A DNA stretch of 64,000 bases, taken from an uncultured Bacteroidales bacterium. Its GTDB lineage: Bacteria > Bacteroidota > Bacteroidia > Bacteroidales > Bacteroidaceae. Below the pieces are notes generated by a model. It was given only the letters and a program-made list of their open reading frames with translations, was not told the origin of the DNA and did no database searches. The position numbers were made by a program, and so were the translations under genes. The stretch lies in assembly GCA_902798685.1 (NCBI GenBank), contig CADBXO010000019.1:1-64000 (forward strand), written 5' to 3'. Below are positions 2,627 through 15,141 of this stretch, in pieces (positions within the stretch are counted from its first letter, which is position 1; each line of letters opens with the position of its first letter).

Positions 2627-3405
2627 TGAAAAATATAAAATGGCACAGGAGTGACAGTATAGGTTCTACCAACACCTATCTGCGTGAGTTGAAAGGAGGA
2701 GATCCCTCATATCAGTATGAGGTGGCGGTTGCAACATTCCAGACGGCAGGCCGCGGCCAGAAAGGAAACTCTTGGGAGTCAGAGTCCGGCAAGAACCTTC
2801 TGTTCAGCATACTTGCCCATCCCGGAAATATTAAGGTACAGGAACAGTTCTATATATCTGAGGCCATAGCGCTTGCCGTGTCGGATAGCGTTATGGATGC
2901 CGTAGGTCCCGAATATGCCGCCGATGTATCGGTGAAATGGTCAAATGATGTCTATTGGAAAGATTTCAAGATGGCCGGAATACTGATTGAGAACACGATT
3001 CAGGGAAGCTCGATACTTGACACTGTAGTGGGCGTAGGACTTGACGTCAACCAGGAGGTTTTTGTAAGCGATGCACCCAACCCCATTTCTCTTAAGAATA
3101 TAACCGGAAGGGAGTTTGATCTGGAGGCTCTCCTCAGTGACATAATTGCCCGTTTCATCGGCTATATGGAGAAGAAACCCGATGACCGTACCATGGTTGA
3201 TGCGCTCTATCACAGCCGTCTCTACCGGCGGGAGGGATTGCATCGATTCCGCGATGAAAAGGGAGAATTCCGTGCAAGTATTGAAGGCGTTTGCCCCGAC
3301 GGATGTCTTATGCTCAAGACCGATAACGGAGAGCACAGGGTATATGAATTCAAGCAGGTCCAGTTCATATTGGGGTCAGACCCCTTTTGCACGTGTAAAG
3401 GTTAG
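2623..3405 (+). CDS. birA: Biotin--[acetyl-CoA-carboxylase] ligase
   Basis: The enzyme makes biotinyl-AMP and transfers biotin to carboxyl-carrier proteins. The 260-residue protein has the ligase core: GSTNTYL (about 14-20), the biotinyl-AMP loop GRGQKGNSW (about 43-51) and KWSNDVYW (about 105-112). There is no N-terminal helix-turn-helix, so it is a class I ligase without repressor function. It overlaps yraN by 4 bp; a second ATG at 2626 is an equally good start. The last 10 or so residues and the stop codon are encoded by a palindromic repeat (3371-3448), so the native C-terminus has been replaced by repeat-derived residues (GSDPFCTCKG). Confidence 0.94.
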   Translation: MMKNIKWHRSDSIGSTNTYLRELKGGDPSYQYEVAVATFQTAGRGQKGNSWESESGKNLLFSILAHPGNIKVQEQFYISEAIALAVSDSVMDAVGPEYAADVSVKWSNDVYWKDFKMAGILIENTIQGSSILDTVVGVGLDVNQEVFVSDAPNPISLKNITGREFDLEALLSDIIARFIGYMEKKPDDRTMVDALYHSRLYRREGLHRFRDEKGEFRASIEGVCPDGCLMLKTDNGEHRVYEFKQVQFILGSDPFCTCKG

Positions 3406-3484: not shown

Positions 3485-4195
3485 ATGGCAAGATTTAAAA
3501 GGATATTGCTCAAGCTCAGCGGCGAGAGCCTGATGGGTGAGCAGAAATACGGAATAGACGAGAAGCGTCTTGGTGAGTATGCACAGCAGATCAAGGAGAT
3601 CCATGACATGGGCGTGCAGATAGGCATCGTGATAGGCGGTGGTAACATATTCCGCGGTCTTAAGGGAGCCGGTAAGGGCTTTGACCGTGTAAAGGGTGAC
3701 CAGATGGGTATGCTGGCAACCGTAATCAACGGTCTGGGACTGAGCTCTGCACTCACATCGATAGACTGCCCCAACAAGGTGCTCACCGCCATCCGCATGG
3801 AGCCCATCGGTGAACTCTATTCAAAATGGAAAGCCATTGACGCCATGGAGCAGGGTCAGGTAGCCATCCTGGTAGGAGGCACCGGCAATCCTTACTTCAC
3901 CACCGATACCGGTTCATCACTGCGCGGTATCGAGATTGAGGCCGATGTAATGCTCAAGGGTACACGCGTGGACGGTGTCTACACCGCAGATCCCGAGAAG
4001 GATCCTACTGCCACCAAGTTCGATGAAATCACATTCGATGAGATTTACAACCGTAACCTCAAGGTGATGGACCTTACCGCCACCACAATGTGTAAGGAGA
4101 ACGGCCTGTCAATCTACGTCTTCAACATGGATATACCCGGCAACCTCAAGAAGGTGATAGCGGGCGAGCCCATCGGCACTCTGGTGCACAAGTAA
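3485..4195 (+). CDS. pyrH: UMP kinase
   Basis: PyrH phosphorylates UMP to UDP in pyrimidine nucleotide synthesis; it is a hexameric amino-acid-kinase-fold enzyme in the cytosol. The 236-residue protein starts MARFKRILLKLSGESL and shows the glycine-rich VIGGGNIFRG segment (about 54-63), GGTGNPYFTTDT for UMP binding, and DGVYTADP near the ATP site. An open frame runs upstream to 3146 but that part is birA read out of frame; the ATG at 3485 gives the family start. A repeat element lies between it and birA, so read-through from birA must pass a hairpin. Confidence 0.97.
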   Translation: MARFKRILLKLSGESLMGEQKYGIDEKRLGEYAQQIKEIHDMGVQIGIVIGGGNIFRGLKGAGKGFDRVKGDQMGMLATVINGLGLSSALTSIDCPNKVLTAIRMEPIGELYSKWKAIDAMEQGQVAILVGGTGNPYFTTDTGSSLRGIEIEADVMLKGTRVDGVYTADPEKDPTATKFDEITFDEIYNRNLKVMDLTATTMCKENGLSIYVFNMDIPGNLKKVIAGEPIGTLVHK

Positions 4196-5205: not shown

Positions 5206-5895
5206 TTACGAAAGTTTTGCCAGGATGGTGATATCGGCCGTAACCTTCTGGTTCATCTTGACGCAGATGAGAGAATCAACGGGCAGATATACGTCAACCC
5301 TGGAGCCGAATTTTATGAATCCCATATGACGGTCAATCTTGGCTTCGTCACCGGGCTTGCAGTATGTTACCACTCTGCGTGCAAGGGCGCCTGCTATCTG
5401 GCGGAGCATGATCTCCTTGCCGTCGGGAGTCTTGATGACTACCAATGAACGCTCGTTCTCAGTGCTTGCCTTGGGCTTGAAGGCTGCATGGAAGTTTCCG
5501 TCCTGATGCTCGGCCTTGATGACTGTTCCGTTTACGGGGAACCAGTTGGCATGCACGCTGTAGATGCTCATGAATATGGATACTACTATGCGGCGGTCAT
5601 TGAAATAATCAGTCTCGTCAACCTCTTCAATAGCCACGATGGTACCGTCGGCGGGTACAACTACGACCTTCTCCTGGTCATCGCTGGGGAAGCGTCTTAC
5701 AGGGTTCCTGAAGAAATTCAGAAAAAACCAGACAAACAGAAGTGTTATGCCTAATGCCACGTATGACCACCAACCTACAATAGGCGGAATCAGAAACAGC
5801 GGCAGGTTTATTACGAAGAAAAGGATTGCCACTATAGTGAGAGTGGTCTTTCCTTCGGGGTTTATTGTGGTATGTTTTCCGTTGTTTTCGGCCAT
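5206..5895 (-). CDS. psd: Phosphatidylserine decarboxylase proenzyme
   Basis: Psd converts phosphatidylserine to phosphatidylethanolamine using a pyruvoyl group made by self-cleavage. The 229-residue protein has two N-terminal hydrophobic stretches (about 17-60), the VPADGTIVAIEEV segment, SIFMSIYSVHANWFPV, and near the C-terminus the FGSRVDVYLP sequence; the GS pair is the self-cleavage site. This is the short PSD-A type. I chose the ATG at 5895 because an exact -7 element lies between it and an upstream in-frame ATG at 5949. It is followed after 3 bp by pssA. Confidence 0.94.
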   Translation of the reverse strand: MAENNGKHTTINPEGKTTLTIVAILFFVINLPLFLIPPIVGWWSYVALGITLLFVWFFLNFFRNPVRRFPSDDQEKVVVVPADGTIVAIEEVDETDYFNDRRIVVSIFMSIYSVHANWFPVNGTVIKAEHQDGNFHAAFKPKASTENERSLVVIKTPDGKEIMLRQIAGALARRVVTYCKPGDEAKIDRHMGFIKFGSRVDVYLPVDSLICVKMNQKVTADITILAKLS

Positions 5896-5917
5896 GTCAT
5901 ATAACTGTGCTGACTGA

Positions 5918-5925
5918 CAAAGATA
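5918..5925 (-). promoter_or_regulatory. -7 element for psd-pssA
   Basis: On the minus strand this reads TATCTTTG, an exact TAnnTTTG match, 22 bp upstream of the psd ATG at 5895. No clear -33 TTG at 18-20 bp. Confidence 0.6.
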
Positions 5926-6010
5926 GGACATTTCAATCAATAATGGCATACTTATTGTATTGTATTTTGTGTTCCCGGTGAATGTTGAAAACTTTTATGG
6001 GGAGTTCCTA

Positions 6011-6041
6011 TTGCGCAAAACGATAAACGGAAGTAACTTTA
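6011..6041 (+). promoter_or_regulatory. Candidate dnaE promoter
   Basis: TTG at 6011-6013, a 20-nt spacer, then TAACTTTA at 6034-6041 (one base off TAnnTTTG). The dnaE ATG is 25 bp further on. Confidence 0.45.
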
Positions 6042-6066
6042 AAAACTTTTCAAGCTCTTATTGACT

Positions 6067-7353
6067 ATGCAGGAATTCGTTCATCTTCATGTCCATACGC
6101 AGTACTCTCTGCTTGACGGCCAGACCAACATCAAGAAGTTGGTAGACAAGGCTATAGCTGATGGTATGCGCGGCGTTGCAGTGACTGATCACGGCAACAT
6201 GATGGGCATTAAGGAGTTCAAGAACTACTGCGATAAAGTCAATGACAAGCTCAAGGAGGAGGGCAAGCATTTCAAGCCTATCATAGGTTGTGAGGTCTAT
6301 GTGGCTCCCCGCCGCAAGGAGCAGCGTGACAGCAAGGAACTGGACGGCGCCAACTATCACCTTATTCTTCTTGCCAAGAATGAGAAGGGTTACCATAACC
6401 TTATCAAGATAGTGTCAAGGGCCTGGATGGACGGATTCTACTCGCATCCCCGTACTGACAAATATGATCTGGAGAAGTATCATGAGGGTATAATATGCTG
6501 CTCTGCATGTCTGGGCGGCGAGGTTCCCAAACTTATCACAGCCGGTAAGATTGATGAGGCCGAGAAGGTGGTGCAGTGGTTCCATAACCTCTTTGGTGAA
6601 GACTATTACCTGGAGCTCCAGCGTCACAAAGCCACCGTACCCAATGCCAACCATGAGGCTTTCCCGCTGCAGCAGAACGTTAACAGGCATCTCATTGAGA
6701 TGTCACAGAAGTTCGGCATCAAGATGGTCTGCACCAATGACGTCCACTTCCTTGATGAGGAGAATGCCGATGCCCACGAACTGCTGATATGCCTCTCTAC
6801 CGGACGTACGCCCGATGATCCCAACCTGATGCGTTACTCCAAGCAGGAGTGGTTCAAGACCACCCAGGAGATGAACGCCCTGTTCGAGGATGTTCCCGAG
6901 GCGCTCCAAGGCACGGTTGAGATCCTGGACAAGGTTGAGGAGTACTCCATCAACCATCCGCCTATCATGCCGAACTTTGCCATTCCCGTGGAGTTCGGAA
7001 CTGAGGAGGAGTACCGTCAGCGTCTCACAGAGGAGGACCTGTTCAAGGAGTTCACCTGCAACGAGCACGGTGAGACCGTCATGTCCAAGGAGGATGCCGA
7101 CAAGAAGATCAAGAAACTGGGCGGTTATGACAAGCTCTACCGTATCAAACTGGAGGCCGATTATCTGGCCGAACTCACCTTCAAGGGAGCCAAGGTCCGT
7201 TACGGAGATCCCATTCCTGAGAGTGTGATGGAACAGCTCAAGTTCGAGCTCCACATCATGAAGACCATGGGTTTCCCGGGATACTTCCTCATTGTGCAGG
7301 ACTTTATCAATGCGGCCCGTACGTGCATACTGCCTGGGTATCACTCAGATTGA
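6067..7353 (+). CDS. dnaE: DNA polymerase III alpha subunit, N-terminal part of a frameshifted gene
   Basis: This is the first third of the replicative polymerase alpha subunit. It begins MQEFVHLHVHTQYSLLDG, the PHP domain signature, with VTDHGNM near residue 42, and continues into the palm up to GYFLIVQDFINAAR. After that Arg (codon 7318-7320) the frame is wrong and stops at 7353 after 11 foreign residues. The normal next segment, which holds the GPGRGSAAGS motif, is missing. The rest of the gene continues one base out of register from about 7322. A TTG at 6061 is in frame, but ATG 6067 gives the standard start. Either the gene is inactivated or the sequence has an error here. Confidence 0.9.
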   Translation: MQEFVHLHVHTQYSLLDGQTNIKKLVDKAIADGMRGVAVTDHGNMMGIKEFKNYCDKVNDKLKEEGKHFKPIIGCEVYVAPRRKEQRDSKELDGANYHLILLAKNEKGYHNLIKIVSRAWMDGFYSHPRTDKYDLEKYHEGIICCSACLGGEVPKLITAGKIDEAEKVVQWFHNLFGEDYYLELQRHKATVPNANHEAFPLQQNVNRHLIEMSQKFGIKMVCTNDVHFLDEENADAHELLICLSTGRTPDDPNLMRYSKQEWFKTTQEMNALFEDVPEALQGTVEILDKVEEYSINHPPIMPNFAIPVEFGTEEEYRQRLTEEDLFKEFTCNEHGETVMSKEDADKKIKKLGGYDKLYRIKLEADYLAELTFKGAKVRYGDPIPESVMEQLKFELHIMKTMGFPGYFLIVQDFINAARTCILPGYHSD

Positions 7354-9727
7354 CCCCATCAAGTATGACCTGCTGTTTGAGCGTTTCCTCAACCCTGACC
7401 GTATATCACTCCCTGATATCGATGTGGACTTTGATGATGACGGCCGCGGCCGCGTGCTTCAGTGGGTGACCGAGAAGTACGGCAAGGAGAAAGTGGCCCA
7501 TATCATCACCTACGGCACAATGGCTACCAAGATGGCCATCAAGGATGTGGCCCGTGTGCTTGAGGTGCCGCTGGATATATCCAACAACCTCTGCAAGGCT
7601 ATCCCTGACCGTCTGCCCGATGATCCCAGCGGAAAGCCCCGCAAGATGAACCTGAGCAACGTGCTGGAGTGCGTGCCGGAACTGCAGCAGGCTGCGGTAT
7701 CTGAGGATGAGCGTCTGCGCAACACCATCAAGTTCGCCAAGATGCTTGAGGGTAACGTACGCGGCACCGGCGTCCATGCCTGCGGTACCATCATCTGCCG
7801 TGATGACGTGACTGACTGGGTGCCTGTATCATGGGCTACCGATAAGGATACCGGTGACCGTCTGCTGGTAACACAGTATGAGGGCAGTGTGATTGAGGAT
7901 ACCGGCCTTATCAAGATGGACTTCCTGGGACTTAAGACACTGTCCATCATCAAGGAGGCCGTTGAGAACATAAAGACAAGCCTTGGTATTGACCTCAACA
8001 TCGATACCATACCCATAGATGACCCCAAGACCTTCCAACTCTACTGCGAGGGCCGTACCATAGGAACGTTCCAGTTTGAATCGCCCGGTATGCAGAAATA
8101 CCTGCGTGAACTGCAGCCCGGTGTGTTTGAGGACCTCATAGCCATGAACGCCCTCTACCGTCCGGGACCTATGGATTACATTCCTGACTTCATAGACCGT
8201 AAGCTGGGCCGAAAGCCAATTGAGTATGATATTCCGGTCATGGAGAAGTATCTTAAGGATACATACGGAATTACCGTATACCAGGAGCAGGTCATGCTGC
8301 TGTCACGTCTGCTGGCCAACTTCACCCGCGGTGAGAGTGATACCCTGCGTAAGGCCATGGGTAAGAAGCTCAAGGACAAGCTGGATCACCTCAAACCCAA
8401 GTTCATTGAGGGCGGTAAGGCCAACGGCCATGATCCTCAGGTACTTGAGAAGATATGGGCCGACTGGGAGAAGTTCGCATCATACGCCTTCAACAAGTCA
8501 CACGCCACATGCTACTCATGGGTGGCTTACCAGACCGCATACCTCAAGGCCAACTATCCGTCACAGTATATGGCTGCGGTGCTCAGCCGTGCCGGTGATA
8601 TCACTGAGGTTACCAAACTCATGGACGAGTGCAAGGCCATGGGCATAAACGTACTCGGGCCCGATGTAAACGAAAGTGTGCCCCGATTCGGTGTCAACGC
8701 CAAGGGCGATATCCGATTCGGTATGGCATCGGTCAAGGGAGTGGGCGAGAATGCGGTATCGGCCATAGTAAGTGAGCGTAAGGCAAACGGACCGTACAAG
8801 AGCATATTCGACTTTGTACAGCGCGTGAACTTGAGTGCCTGCAACCGTAAGAACATAGAGAACCTGGCCATGGCCGGAGCGTTTGACTGCTTCCCCGAGA
8901 TAAAGCGCGAACAGTTCGTTCAGCCCTGCGGCAAGAATGAGGTGTTTAGTGATGTGCTGGTGCGTTACGGTACCAAGTATCAGACAGACCGTATGGAGTC
9001 ACAGTTCTCGCTGTTCGGCGATATGGGTCACACAGACCTTATAGCCACGCCGGTCATCCCTGAGGCTGCTGAGTGGCCCCTGCTGGAACGCCTGAACAAG
9101 GAGAAGGAACTGGTGGGCATCTATCTGTCGGCACATCCCCTTGATGAGTACAGGGTAATCCTGGAGAATGTGTGCAACATAAGCGTCACACAGCTTGAGG
9201 ACCGCCAGGCGCTGGTAAACAAGGACCTTATAATGGGAGGTGTGGTTACTGGCGTACGTGAGAGCCGGACCAAGAACGGCAAGCCCTGCGGATTTACCCG
9301 TATTGAGGACTTTACCGGATCATCTGAGATAGCCCTGTTCGGTGAGCCGTGGCTCAAGTGGGCCAATATGATGAAGGAGGGCAATTACCTCTTCATCAAA
9401 GCCAAGTGCCAGCCTTACAAGTTCAATCCGGAGAGGGTGGACTTTGTAATCAACTCCATAGAACTTCTGCAGGATGTCAGAGATGACGCGATAAGTTCGT
9501 TGACTCTTACCATGCCGGTATCGGAGCTTGACAAGGAGTTTGTAAGTGATCTGGATACACTTACCGGAACAGAAGGCAAGACCACGCTCAAGTTTATCCT
9601 TACTGACCTGACATCACCTGACAACAAGGTGTCATTGACATCGGCCACCAGAAGGATAACCGTGACGCAGGAACTAATGGATTACTTAAAGAAGAGAGAG
9701 ACAATAAATTATTCATTCAATCAATAA
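7292..9727 (+). CDS. dnaE: DNA polymerase III alpha subunit, C-terminal part of a frameshifted gene
   Basis: This is the remaining two thirds of dnaE. Homologous sequence begins at about 7322 with AYCLGITQIDPIKYDLLFER and continues into FLNPDRISLPDIDVDFDDD, which holds the two catalytic aspartates of the palm. Fingers, the helix-hairpin-helix region and an OB-fold (about 9200-9450, TKNGKPCGFTRIEDFTG) follow. The ATG at 7292 merely opens this frame and its first 10 codons are not homologous. Joined across the break, the gene would run 6067-9727 and code for about 1,220 residues plus the deleted motif. trxA follows after 9 bp. Confidence 0.9.
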   Translation: MCRTLSMRPVRAYCLGITQIDPIKYDLLFERFLNPDRISLPDIDVDFDDDGRGRVLQWVTEKYGKEKVAHIITYGTMATKMAIKDVARVLEVPLDISNNLCKAIPDRLPDDPSGKPRKMNLSNVLECVPELQQAAVSEDERLRNTIKFAKMLEGNVRGTGVHACGTIICRDDVTDWVPVSWATDKDTGDRLLVTQYEGSVIEDTGLIKMDFLGLKTLSIIKEAVENIKTSLGIDLNIDTIPIDDPKTFQLYCEGRTIGTFQFESPGMQKYLRELQPGVFEDLIAMNALYRPGPMDYIPDFIDRKLGRKPIEYDIPVMEKYLKDTYGITVYQEQVMLLSRLLANFTRGESDTLRKAMGKKLKDKLDHLKPKFIEGGKANGHDPQVLEKIWADWEKFASYAFNKSHATCYSWVAYQTAYLKANYPSQYMAAVLSRAGDITEVTKLMDECKAMGINVLGPDVNESVPRFGVNAKGDIRFGMASVKGVGENAVSAIVSERKANGPYKSIFDFVQRVNLSACNRKNIENLAMAGAFDCFPEIKREQFVQPCGKNEVFSDVLVRYGTKYQTDRMESQFSLFGDMGHTDLIATPVIPEAAEWPLLERLNKEKELVGIYLSAHPLDEYRVILENVCNISVTQLEDRQALVNKDLIMGGVVTGVRESRTKNGKPCGFTRIEDFTGSSEIALFGEPWLKWANMMKEGNYLFIKAKCQPYKFNPERVDFVINSIELLQDVRDDAISSLTLTMPVSELDKEFVSDLDTLTGTEGKTTLKFILTDLTSPDNKVSLTSATRRITVTQELMDYLKKRETINYSFNQ

Positions 9728-10803: not shown

Positions 10804-12365
10804 TTCTTTTTGGGGTTAAGGGTTATGAATGGTATTATCATCTCCTCAAGTGACACGCCTCCGTGCTGGAAGGTCTCCTTGTAGAATGATGCGTAGTTAT
10901 TGAAATTGTTCTGATATACAAAGTAGTCATCCTCGGTGCAGAAGATGTATGACGTGCTTACGTTGGGAGATGGCAGATGTGCCTTGAGAGGCTCGCTTAT
11001 CTCATACACCTCCTTGGGATTGAATCCAAGGTTCTTGCCCAGTTTGTAGCGAAGGTTGGTGTTGGTGGTGCGGTCACCTGCAATCTTAACCGCGTGGCCC
11101 ACCATGATACTGCCGTGGTCAGTGGTAATCATAACCTTATGGCCGGTGGCAGCCATTGAGCGGAACAGCTCACGGACCGATGAGTGACGGAACCATGAGA
11201 GAATCAGGCTGCGGTATGCCGCCTCGTCATTGGCCAACTCACGCATCATACGTGAATCAGTCTTGGAGTGTGACAGTATGTCGATAAAGTTGACAACCAC
11301 CACGTTCAGGTCATTCTGCAGCAGATTGTTCCACTGGCTCATAAGTTTATCGGCCGATGCAGAATCGTTCACCTTGTTGTATGAGAATGTGTCCTTGCGG
11401 CGGTAACGGTCAATCTGTGTCTGTATAAGCGGCGACTCGTTTATGTTCTTGCCCTCCTCGGAGTCCTCATCGACCCACAGTTCAGGAAACATACGGCTTA
11501 TCTGCTCGGGCATGAGGCCTGAGAAAATTGCGTTGCGTGAGTACTGTGTGGCGGTGGGCAGTATGCTGTAGTAAAGCTGTTCGTCGATTGTAAAGAGCTC
11601 GGCAAGTTCCTGGCTCAGAGTGCGCCACTGGTCATAACGGAAGTTGTCCATTACAATCAGGAACAGTTTTTCACCCTTGTCAAGTGCCGGGAATACGAAC
11701 TTCTTGAAAAGGTCGGGACTCATTACGGGACTCTTCTCGCGGTCTTTCATCCAGTCCATGTAGTTGCGCTTTATGAACTTGGCAAAGGCTGCGTTGGCCT
11801 CGGTCTTCTGCATCTTGAGCATATCGTGCATGGAGCTGTCAGCCTCCTTGAGTTCAAGCTCCCAGTAAACCAGCTGGCGATAGACCTCTATCCAGTCATC
11901 GGCCGTAAGGGAGTCGTTGATCTGCATGCTCAGCTTGCCGAAGTTCTGCTGGTAGTTACGGTCAGTCTCGGCGGTTACGATATCGCGTTTGTGGATGTTC
12001 TTTTTAAGTGACAGCAGTATCTGGTTGGGATGGACGGGCTTGATCAGGTAGTCGGCAATTTTTGAGCCGATGGCCTGGTCCATGATATTCTCCTCCTCAC
12101 TCTTGGTCACCATCACGACGGGGATGTTGGGATCTATCTCCTTGATGTGGGACAGTGTCTCAAGACCGCTCATTCCCACCATATGCTCATCAAGCAGCAC
12201 CAGGTCATACTGACGCTGACGGCACATGTCCAGTGCGTCGTGTCCGTTGGTTACGGTATCCACCTCATATCCCTTGTTCTCAAGAAACATGATATGGGCT
12301 CTTAGCAGGTCAATCTCATCATCGACCCAGAGCAGTGTGCCGTTTTTGCTGTCAGTCTTCTCCAT
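10800..12365 (-). CDS. porX: PorX: response regulator with PglZ phosphatase-like domain
   Basis: PorX is the response regulator that controls the type IX secretion system (T9SS) in Bacteroidota. The 521-residue protein has an N-terminal receiver domain: [11 protein letters not shown] (acidic pair about 15-16), phospho-acceptor Asp at about 59 in LVLLDEHM, and the conserved Lys in VTKSEEEN. There is no DNA-binding domain; instead a long C-terminal PglZ/alkaline-phosphatase-fold domain has MDNFRYDQW and [11 protein letters not shown] metal-site segments. This domain order is characteristic of PorX. I prefer the ATG at 12365 over one six codons upstream, because it gives the family start. It overlaps porW by 14 bp and tsaE by 4 bp. 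Confidence 0.9.
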
Positions 12366-15141
12366 CGTCCGAATATTCTTCAAAGAGTGTGGCTCCGTCT
12401 ATGTCGAACTCCGGTATGTTCAGGAAATGCTCCTCATAGAACTCCTGATAGTCATTGAAGCTGAAGTGCTTGAACAGTATCTCCAGGTTGCCGGGAGTTA
12501 TGACTACCGCCTTGATTCCGCTCAGCTTGCTTGCCATATCGGGATCGTCATACAGGTTGCGCTGATAAACGTAAGCCTCGTCAAAGTTAAGAAATTCTCC
12601 GACTATCATCATGCCTATTCCCTGTTCAGTTATAAAACCGATGTCAAAGTTGCGCATCATGTAGTTGGTGAAGTTGAATCGGGCCACCTCAAACAGCAGC
12701 TGGTTCTGGTCAAGTTCACCCTCCGGATAGGCCAGCAGGAATATGAACGGCTCGTAGCGTTCCGGACTGAATTGAGGTGCTACGCTGTCAGACTCACTCT
12801 CTTGGGCAGTACCGTTGCGACGGTCCCAGATGGAACTGAATGATGTGGACTGCAGAATCCTTCCGTTCTGGATTCCCTGTGCAATCAGTCCGGCCAGTTC
12901 ACTGATCTCATTCTGGGGATACTTGGTCACAATCTCCTTGAGTTTCTCCAGGAAGGTGTCAGTGTCACCGTTCTGAAGGTCAAGGGCTGCATCCAGGAAC
13001 ATGAACTTGGCGCGGTGCTGTCCCTTGGGGTATTTCGTGGCCGATATCTCACAGTTGTTTTTTACGGTCCGTAAGTCACCGTCACGGAATGCGGCATAGG
13101 TGACCACATAGATGGAGTCCTCACGGTGCTTGCCATATCGGGCGTTGTCTATGTAGTCGGGGTCACAGACCATGATTGTGTAATCACTCTCGGGATAGAG
13201 CCTCTGCATGCGGCTGCGGCAACTGTCTGCCTGGTCGTTCCTACCCCACAGCGAGTACATGAGATAGAGGTTGTACATGGCCTCATCGGCCTGGTCTGAC
13301 TCGGGATAATCGGCCACGATACGGGTGAGTGCAGCCTCGGCATCGGGGAATTCTGACAGACGGTCCTTGTATATAATACCCAGTTCCAGAAGGGACTCTG
13401 ATATGAGCTTGTCTGACTTCTGCTTGTCCTCATCAGAGTAGGGGATCTGCTGGATATAATACTCGCGTTTATACGGATCAGTCTCTTGAGTTACGGCATT
13501 GAGGGTATCCACGATAATGTCCGAGAGAGTGTCCTGTTCCGATCTCAGTTGAGCATCGGTGCCGGTCATTGCGTCGTTCATCGGCGCCAGAGTGGTCTTG
13601 TTGGACCTGCGCCAGTTATCCTCAAGCTTACGGTCACCCCACTGCTTACTGAATTCCTTCTTTCCGTGGGTCACTACCTTTGGATTGTAGAAATACCATT
13701 GTCCTTCAGAGCCTTCATCAGTATCGATAGACATGGCCGATGCCGCTCCCTGGCGTGCAGCCTCCTTGGCCTCCTTTTTGCGGCGTTCCTCCTCCAGGCG
13801 CTCCTGCTCCTTAAGATCCTCTATGACCTTGTCAATTATGACATAGAGCCTCTCCTCGGGCAGGGTGGAGAGCCATTGCAGACTATCCTGCAGTTTGACC
13901 GTACCGTCGCTTTTTACCAGATCCTCCAGTACCTCGGAGCGCAGTTTCACGGTGGCGTACTCCTTATGGGAGGTTCCTATCATACCGACTGCCTGCGAGT
14001 AGCAGCGGGATGCATTCGGGTAGTCCTTCATGTTCCAGTAGAGGTCAGCCATGGTAAGCAGCAGTATGCCCTTTTCGTCCGATGCCTTCTGACCCTTGTC
14101 CACTCCCTGGTTGTAGTAGCTCAGGGCAGTTGCGGTATCTCCGCGCATGAGATGGATGTTACCCATCGCATAGTATACCTGATCCAGGTTGTCCTTGTTG
14201 ACCGGGTCACGTTCCATGCGCTTGAGTTTCTTCATTATCTTGCGCATATTTCCGTTGCGGGCCATTGTCTCGGTCTGCTGTATGCGGGCATGGAACTCAA
14301 TCTCATGGGGAGGACTCATACGGATCACCTTGCCGAACGTGCGGTAGGCCTCGTCATTGCGGTCTGTCGTCTTGTAGAGCTGTGCAAGCAGATAGCGCTC
14401 ACGAATGCGCTGAAGCTTGCTTACTCCCTTTCGGTTTATTGCCTCCTCCAGCAGCGGGATACTCTCCTCATAACGCTCCTGATTGAGCAGGTGTGACGCA
14501 AACCGGGCCTGATAATCCAGGTGACGGGACATGTTGGTCTTGGTCTCGCCTGAACGCTGGAACAGCTCTTCGGCTTCATAGTTCCAACCCAGTTCAGAGT
14601 AGCACTGGGCCATCTTGTATTGTGCCTCGGCCACTATCTCAGGCTCGTCATAATAGAGCTTGGTTATGTATGAGTAGGTGCTGGCCGCCTCTATGAAATC
14701 TCCTTTCTGTCTTTGGGCATCGGCCATGAGGAACCATGCGTGCCAAAGGAAGGGGTTGTATTCGTTCTTGTTCTGAAAAGCCTTGTCGGCCTGAGTAGGA
14801 GTACCCTTCTTTTTCTTGGGCTTTTCCGAGATGGAATGGAGCTTGATACCCTTTTGCGCCTTCTCAATGGCAAGGTCAAAACTGGACGTACCGGTAGAGC
14901 GGACCTTCTCGTCACTTACGGGGTAGAGATCCAGTATCTCAAGCAGGTTGTCCTTCTTGGCTTTCTCCTGTGCCTCATATCCTTTGCGGTAGGCTTCGCT
15001 TCCGTTAAAGTAGACGTTGTATTTGGTTACCAGCGCCTGGTATTGACGAGAGGCGGCGGTGTTGCGGGATGTGGAACAGCCGGTCACCACTGCAAGCAGC
15101 GGTAACATCAATGCGTAAATGGCTGTCCGGGTCCTTCTCAT
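12352..15141 (-). CDS. porW: PorW/SprE-type tetratricopeptide lipoprotein of the type IX secretion system
   Basis: A 929-residue lipoprotein: a signal peptide ending LAVVTGC with lipidated Cys22, then the short conserved stretch ALVTKYNVYFNGSEAYRKG, and tetratricopeptide repeats through about residue 420 and again from about 580. This head (CSTxxN, then KYNxYFNG) is the mark of PorW/SprE, an outer-membrane-associated lipoprotein needed for T9SS secretion and gliding in relatives. A charged, coiled stretch (LKEQERLEEERRKKEAKEA) separates the TPR blocks. porX follows with a 14-bp overlap, which couples a secretion component to its regulator. Confidence 0.85.
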   Translation of the reverse strand: MRRTRTAIYALMLPLLAVVTGCSTSRNTAASRQYQALVTKYNVYFNGSEAYRKGYEAQEKAKKDNLLEILDLYPVSDEKVRSTGTSSFDLAIEKAQKGIKLHSISEKPKKKKGTPTQADKAFQNKNEYNPFLWHAWFLMADAQRQKGDFIEAASTYSYITKLYYDEPEIVAEAQYKMAQCYSELGWNYEAEELFQRSGETKTNMSRHLDYQARFASHLLNQERYEESIPLLEEAINRKGVSKLQRIRERYLLAQLYKTTDRNDEAYRTFGKVIRMSPPHEIEFHARIQQTETMARNGNMRKIMKKLKRMERDPVNKDNLDQVYYAMGNIHLMRGDTATALSYYNQGVDKGQKASDEKGILLLTMADLYWNMKDYPNASRCYSQAVGMIGTSHKEYATVKLRSEVLEDLVKSDGTVKLQDSLQWLSTLPEERLYVIIDKVIEDLKEQERLEEERRKKEAKEAARQGAASAMSIDTDEGSEGQWYFYNPKVVTHGKKEFSKQWGDRKLEDNWRRSNKTTLAPMNDAMTGTDAQLRSEQDTLSDIIVDTLNAVTQETDPYKREYYIQQIPYSDEDKQKSDKLISESLLELGIIYKDRLSEFPDAEAALTRIVADYPESDQADEAMYNLYLMYSLWGRNDQADSCRSRMQRLYPESDYTIMVCDPDYIDNARYGKHREDSIYVVTYAAFRDGDLRTVKNNCEISATKYPKGQHRAKFMFLDAALDLQNGDTDTFLEKLKEIVTKYPQNEISELAGLIAQGIQNGRILQSTSFSSIWDRRNGTAQESESDSVAPQFSPERYEPFIFLLAYPEGELDQNQLLFEVARFNFTNYMMRNFDIGFITEQGIGMMIVGEFLNFDEAYVYQRNLYDDPDMASKLSGIKAVVITPGNLEILFKHFSFNDYQEFYEEHFLNIPEFDIDGATLFEEYSDDGED

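Follow-up and report, generated by a model that had tools for sequence, protein, structure and literature searches.

The window analysed here is a stretch of 64,000 nucleotides, bases 1–64000 of contig 19 (99,803 bases) in a metagenome assembly, from a Bacteroides-like bacterium, of 2.26 Mb and 42 contigs that is 83.7% complete and 2.45% contaminated. It carries a dnaE gene, encoding the alpha subunit of DNA polymerase III of the C family (PF02811, PF07733, PF17657 and PF14579), which shares domain order and flank identity with the DnaE of relatives but differs from them in that 53 nt are absent at 7323–7325, 18 codons with the GPGRGSAAGS motif are lost and the frame is shifted. The features of the locus are as follows:

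6067–9727, plus strand: whole dnaE, from the ATG at 6067 to the stop at 9727, interrupted by the 53-nt deletion at 7323–7325.
6067–7353, plus strand: 5′ part of dnaE, with the PHP domain (PF02811) and the start of the palm (PF07733 positions 1–55).
7323–7325, plus strand: junction of the 53-nt deletion, from alignments of 23 and of 36 relatives (35 of the latter readable).
7325–9727, plus strand: 3′ part of dnaE, with the rest of the palm, the fingers, HhH and OB (PF07733 positions 73–260, PF17657, PF14579 and PF01336).

No continuous single reading frame runs through dnaE, which is divided between two frames. Translation of the first gives DFINAAR, ending with the Arg at 7318–7320, followed by TCILPGYHSD and a stop at 7351–7353; the Thr at 7321–7323 is the residue of many relatives at that position, and the sequence is in frame up to this Arg and Thr and out of frame from there to the stop. 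The original prediction had placed the end at INAAR and the stop at 7353 correctly; its eleven foreign residues are ten after the Arg, and the first of these is the common Thr. At 7325 the normal DnaE protein restarts in the next frame, as predicted, beginning AYCLGIT, and this frame stays open to the stop at 9725–9727. A Pfam scan of the two pieces separately recovered the intact domain order (PHP, palm, fingers, HhH), and the second piece contains PDIDVDF, whose aspartates we take to be the catalytic residues of DnaE.

Counted from the first base of the Arg codon up to the Ala codon, 35 of the 36 same-genus relatives have 60 nt and the window has 7, so that exactly 53 nt are gone; the 36th relative (G010) has Ns at the deletion site. 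A single T at 7324 replaces the 54 nt that in relatives separate the Thr-position codon from the Ala codon, and no exact match of at least 14 nt to any of the 36 relatives covers this base. The 18 lost codons include VGPGRGSAAGS (the stretch in relatives is exemplified by ELGVSVGPGRGSAAGSAV), and the GS motif GPGRGSAAGS is absent from the dnaE of the window and present in the 35 readable relatives. A short deletion with a frameshift does remove this motif, as had been proposed; a single-base indel, already judged insufficient, does not account for it. Protein identity to the nearest same-genus DnaE is 96.7–99% on the 5′ flank and 97% on the 3′ flank, and because both flanks are near-identical to the nearest relatives the gap did not arise by chance. 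In intact relatives the missing segment can be aligned to the Thermus and E. coli structures (2hpi and 2hnh), and the GS motif is described in PMC11646218 as part of the nucleotidyltransferase fold of C-family polymerases.

Comparison with seven relatives gave dN/dS values of 0.011–0.039 for the first part of dnaE and 0.034–0.088 for the second. Both halves are under strong purifying selection and show no decay; this constraint holds up to the recent past, and a very recent loss is compatible with these values. The gene is essential for bacterial replication, and the original prediction had raised the option of a second copy, to be sought in the genome as dnaE or polC. A family search for DnaE/PolC in the 83.7% complete assembly returned PF07733 matches only in the two dnaE halves, at one locus. 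A 260-nt probe from the relative G011, including the missing segment, found no second copy of this segment in the 42 contigs of the same incomplete assembly: two of its 22 matches are the dnaE flanks, and the other 20, of 14 to 29 bases (E 0.08 or worse), do not span the segment. A second copy finds no support in the assembly by family or by DNA; one may lie within the missing part.

This incompleteness leaves room for a real, fixed deletion of the palm GS segment, in which a second polymerase, encoded on a mobile element or in an unassembled region, would replicate the genome; also in favour is the same-genus genome G044, whose second DnaE-like protein (814 aa) has the motif intact. We consider such a deletion very improbable, since a second PF07733 locus was not found in the assembly, both halves of dnaE are still constrained, and 35 of the 36 genus relatives have one continuous full-length domain match, with all extra matches partial except that of G044. 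If real, it would mean a bacterium living without a working chromosomal DnaE and would overturn a basic expectation. The two long open frames also adjoin as they might in a functional DnaE split between two polypeptides, but neither half holds the GS-motif segment of the nucleotidyltransferase palm, no other copy of it was found, and in place of an intein-like extension there are only ten out-of-frame residues; this arrangement is scarcely credible.

The distribution of the segment was evaluated in a genus search of 37 genomes and a family sample of 131, the genome of the window being included in both and six genomes being shared, which leaves 160 others; both searches test a domain of 260 positions, about 780 nt or about a fifth of dnaE, and not whole genes. 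All 37 genomes of the genus match, 35 relatives with an unbroken match to practically the entire domain, and the exceptions are the split gene of the window and G010, which matches positions 73–260 only. In the family sample 129 of 131 genomes match, and by subtraction 126 of the 130 others show a single continuous match; in G090 it is split, the match of G148 stops at the end of an 8,798-nt contig, and G103 and G107 have none. The 80 loci of named relatives belong to Bacteroidaceae and kin, with rumen, faeces and gut among the sources (the genome itself or a very near one was possibly excluded from that search, which yielded no second assembly of the species). The named relatives whose DnaE is 93% identical are Bacteroidaceae or Bacteroidales assembled from metagenomes, with origins in horse faeces, water buffalo and a RUG-series assembly.

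Two of these exceptions break at the same place as the window. Of 16 relatives compared, G010 (L033, G010:C32) is the closest in dnaE nucleotide identity. Here 103 Ns at 3221–3323 take the place of the stretch, in register, and the last of them immediately precedes the Ala codon, which gives this gap the downstream edge of the deletion; this assembly has further gaps of 29 Ns in dnaE (3497–3525) and 63 Ns outside it, and its Ns may represent an assembly gap or a masked stretch. In G090, from another genus of the family (L227, G090:C18, 2945–3298), dnaE is split by 100 Ns flanked by two 127-nt copies, 100% identical, that carry the motif region, which points to a scaffolding artefact of this reference genome in which two contig ends with a shared overlap were joined. 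The join in the window shares its place in dnaE with this N gap and these duplicated ends but differs from both in being a plain deletion with no Ns and no duplicated end. Although the number is small (2 of 160 other genomes) and the probe spans only about a fifth of the gene, three assemblies broken at the same conserved place are suggestive, though no proof, of a technical cause; the organism-level deletion implied by the original prediction is not established, as the breaks that two other assemblies have here look technical.

The quality of the source assembly bears on this in the opposite direction. The 1,296,769 of 2,262,615 bases examined in the genome of the window (G000) contain one single N, and a strict test for broken genes between G000 and G011, over 206,508 nt of comparable genes, flagged 4 of 172 G011 ORFs as broken in G000 and 3 of 174 G000 ORFs as broken in G011. 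Among the four, dnaE alone combines a frame change with lost residues at otherwise 97% identity; one of the others has a stop at the third residue of its aligned piece, and the remaining two ORFs, 147 and 245 residues long, contain one and three in-frame stops. A loose test on contig 19 flagged 3 of 69 G011 ORFs, 6 of 61 G008 ORFs and 4 of 48 G006 ORFs, with dnaE in every set; together with the few broken genes of the strict test, this led us to reject a generally poor assembly. The assembly is clean overall, with few frame errors, and this lends mild support to the presence of the junction in some read.

We judge with good confidence that the locus is a normal dnaE, present once, and that at one spot the metagenome assembly has its sequence wrong or, having been built from rare or chimeric reads, does not represent the living cells; the option of a wrong sequence was among those originally listed. 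An intact gene is very probably present in the cells. In favour of this technical reading are the essential nature of a gene for which neither another PF07733 locus nor a copy of the lost DNA was found, the presence of the segment in all same-genus relatives apart from the Ns of G010, the low dN/dS on both halves (0.011–0.088), the singular position of dnaE among the 172 comparable genes, and the downstream edge shared with G010 together with the duplicated ends around the Ns of G090. Furthermore, in 10 of 16 relatives no other 250-nt bin of dnaE surpasses the one at the site in identity (highest or tied-highest), and the 80 nt immediately left of the break match G006 exactly (over the gene, median 44 and maximum 107). 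Against it stand an assembly that is clean elsewhere, a deletion with no long flanking repeat, for which simple k-mer collapse is no explanation, the consequence that the junction must have been present in at least one read or join, the small clustering of breaks (three assemblies, a probe of about 780 nt and a second dnaE gap in G010), and the possibility that the Ns are masked stretches.

Assemblers branch at stretches common to co-occurring species, and where a join has no gap, the junction was usually present in some read. We infer that the loss is technical and that it arose at a step of sequencing or assembly at which contig ends or reads would have been joined across DNA strongly conserved among related species, with the loss of 53 nt; the observed junction could come from ends that were wrongly joined, or from the joining of a read that was chimeric or bore the deletion. 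Two other origins were considered and rejected. For a chimera of two species at the break, no switch of nearest relative is seen: among 16 compared, G010 comes first on the left (90.7%) as well as on the right (92.3%), with G002 almost as near on the left (90.4%). For a deletion driven by a hairpin, the G011 segment showed no advantage in folding over its shuffled versions (z 0.03).

The continuity of the contig, with no Ns at a join of a kind that is usually read-borne, and the lack of a repeat of assembly k-mer length at the break are also what would be expected of a real dnaE null allele, present in part of the population or in dead or dying cells and taken by the assembler as consensus. 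We regard this as unlikely, since a null of the only replicative polymerase should not become the majority of reads and there is no decay on either side of the break. Under the favoured technical reading, the deletion is most likely no genuine feature of living cells. Metagenome assemblies can break at a strongly conserved part of dnaE, and a missing motif in a metagenome-assembled gene is therefore no evidence of lost function.

DnaE-like proteins of other kinds were also observed among the relatives. The locus L042 (G022:C6) encodes, at 5589–6077 and 11669–12967, proteins of 162 and 432 aa that match PF07733 (E 1.8e-8 and 7.2e-20), the second also matching the fingers (PF17657); judging from their altered GPGRGSAAGS and PDIDVDF motifs, both are probably not polymerases. 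No PADLOC model matched these two proteins, and their neighbours, two WYL regulators, a metallo-beta-lactamase-fold protein and a PLD-like protein, resemble a defence island. The genomes G002, G006, G023, G044 and G052 of the genus and G062, G133 and G157 of the family also have partial PF07733 matches that are comparable in extent. The second DnaE-like protein of G044 (L229, G044:C32, 2260–4704, minus strand) ends after the fingers region and has both GPGRGSAAGS and PDIDIDF intact; an AAA ATPase gene lies nearby, and the gene may be carried on a mobile element.
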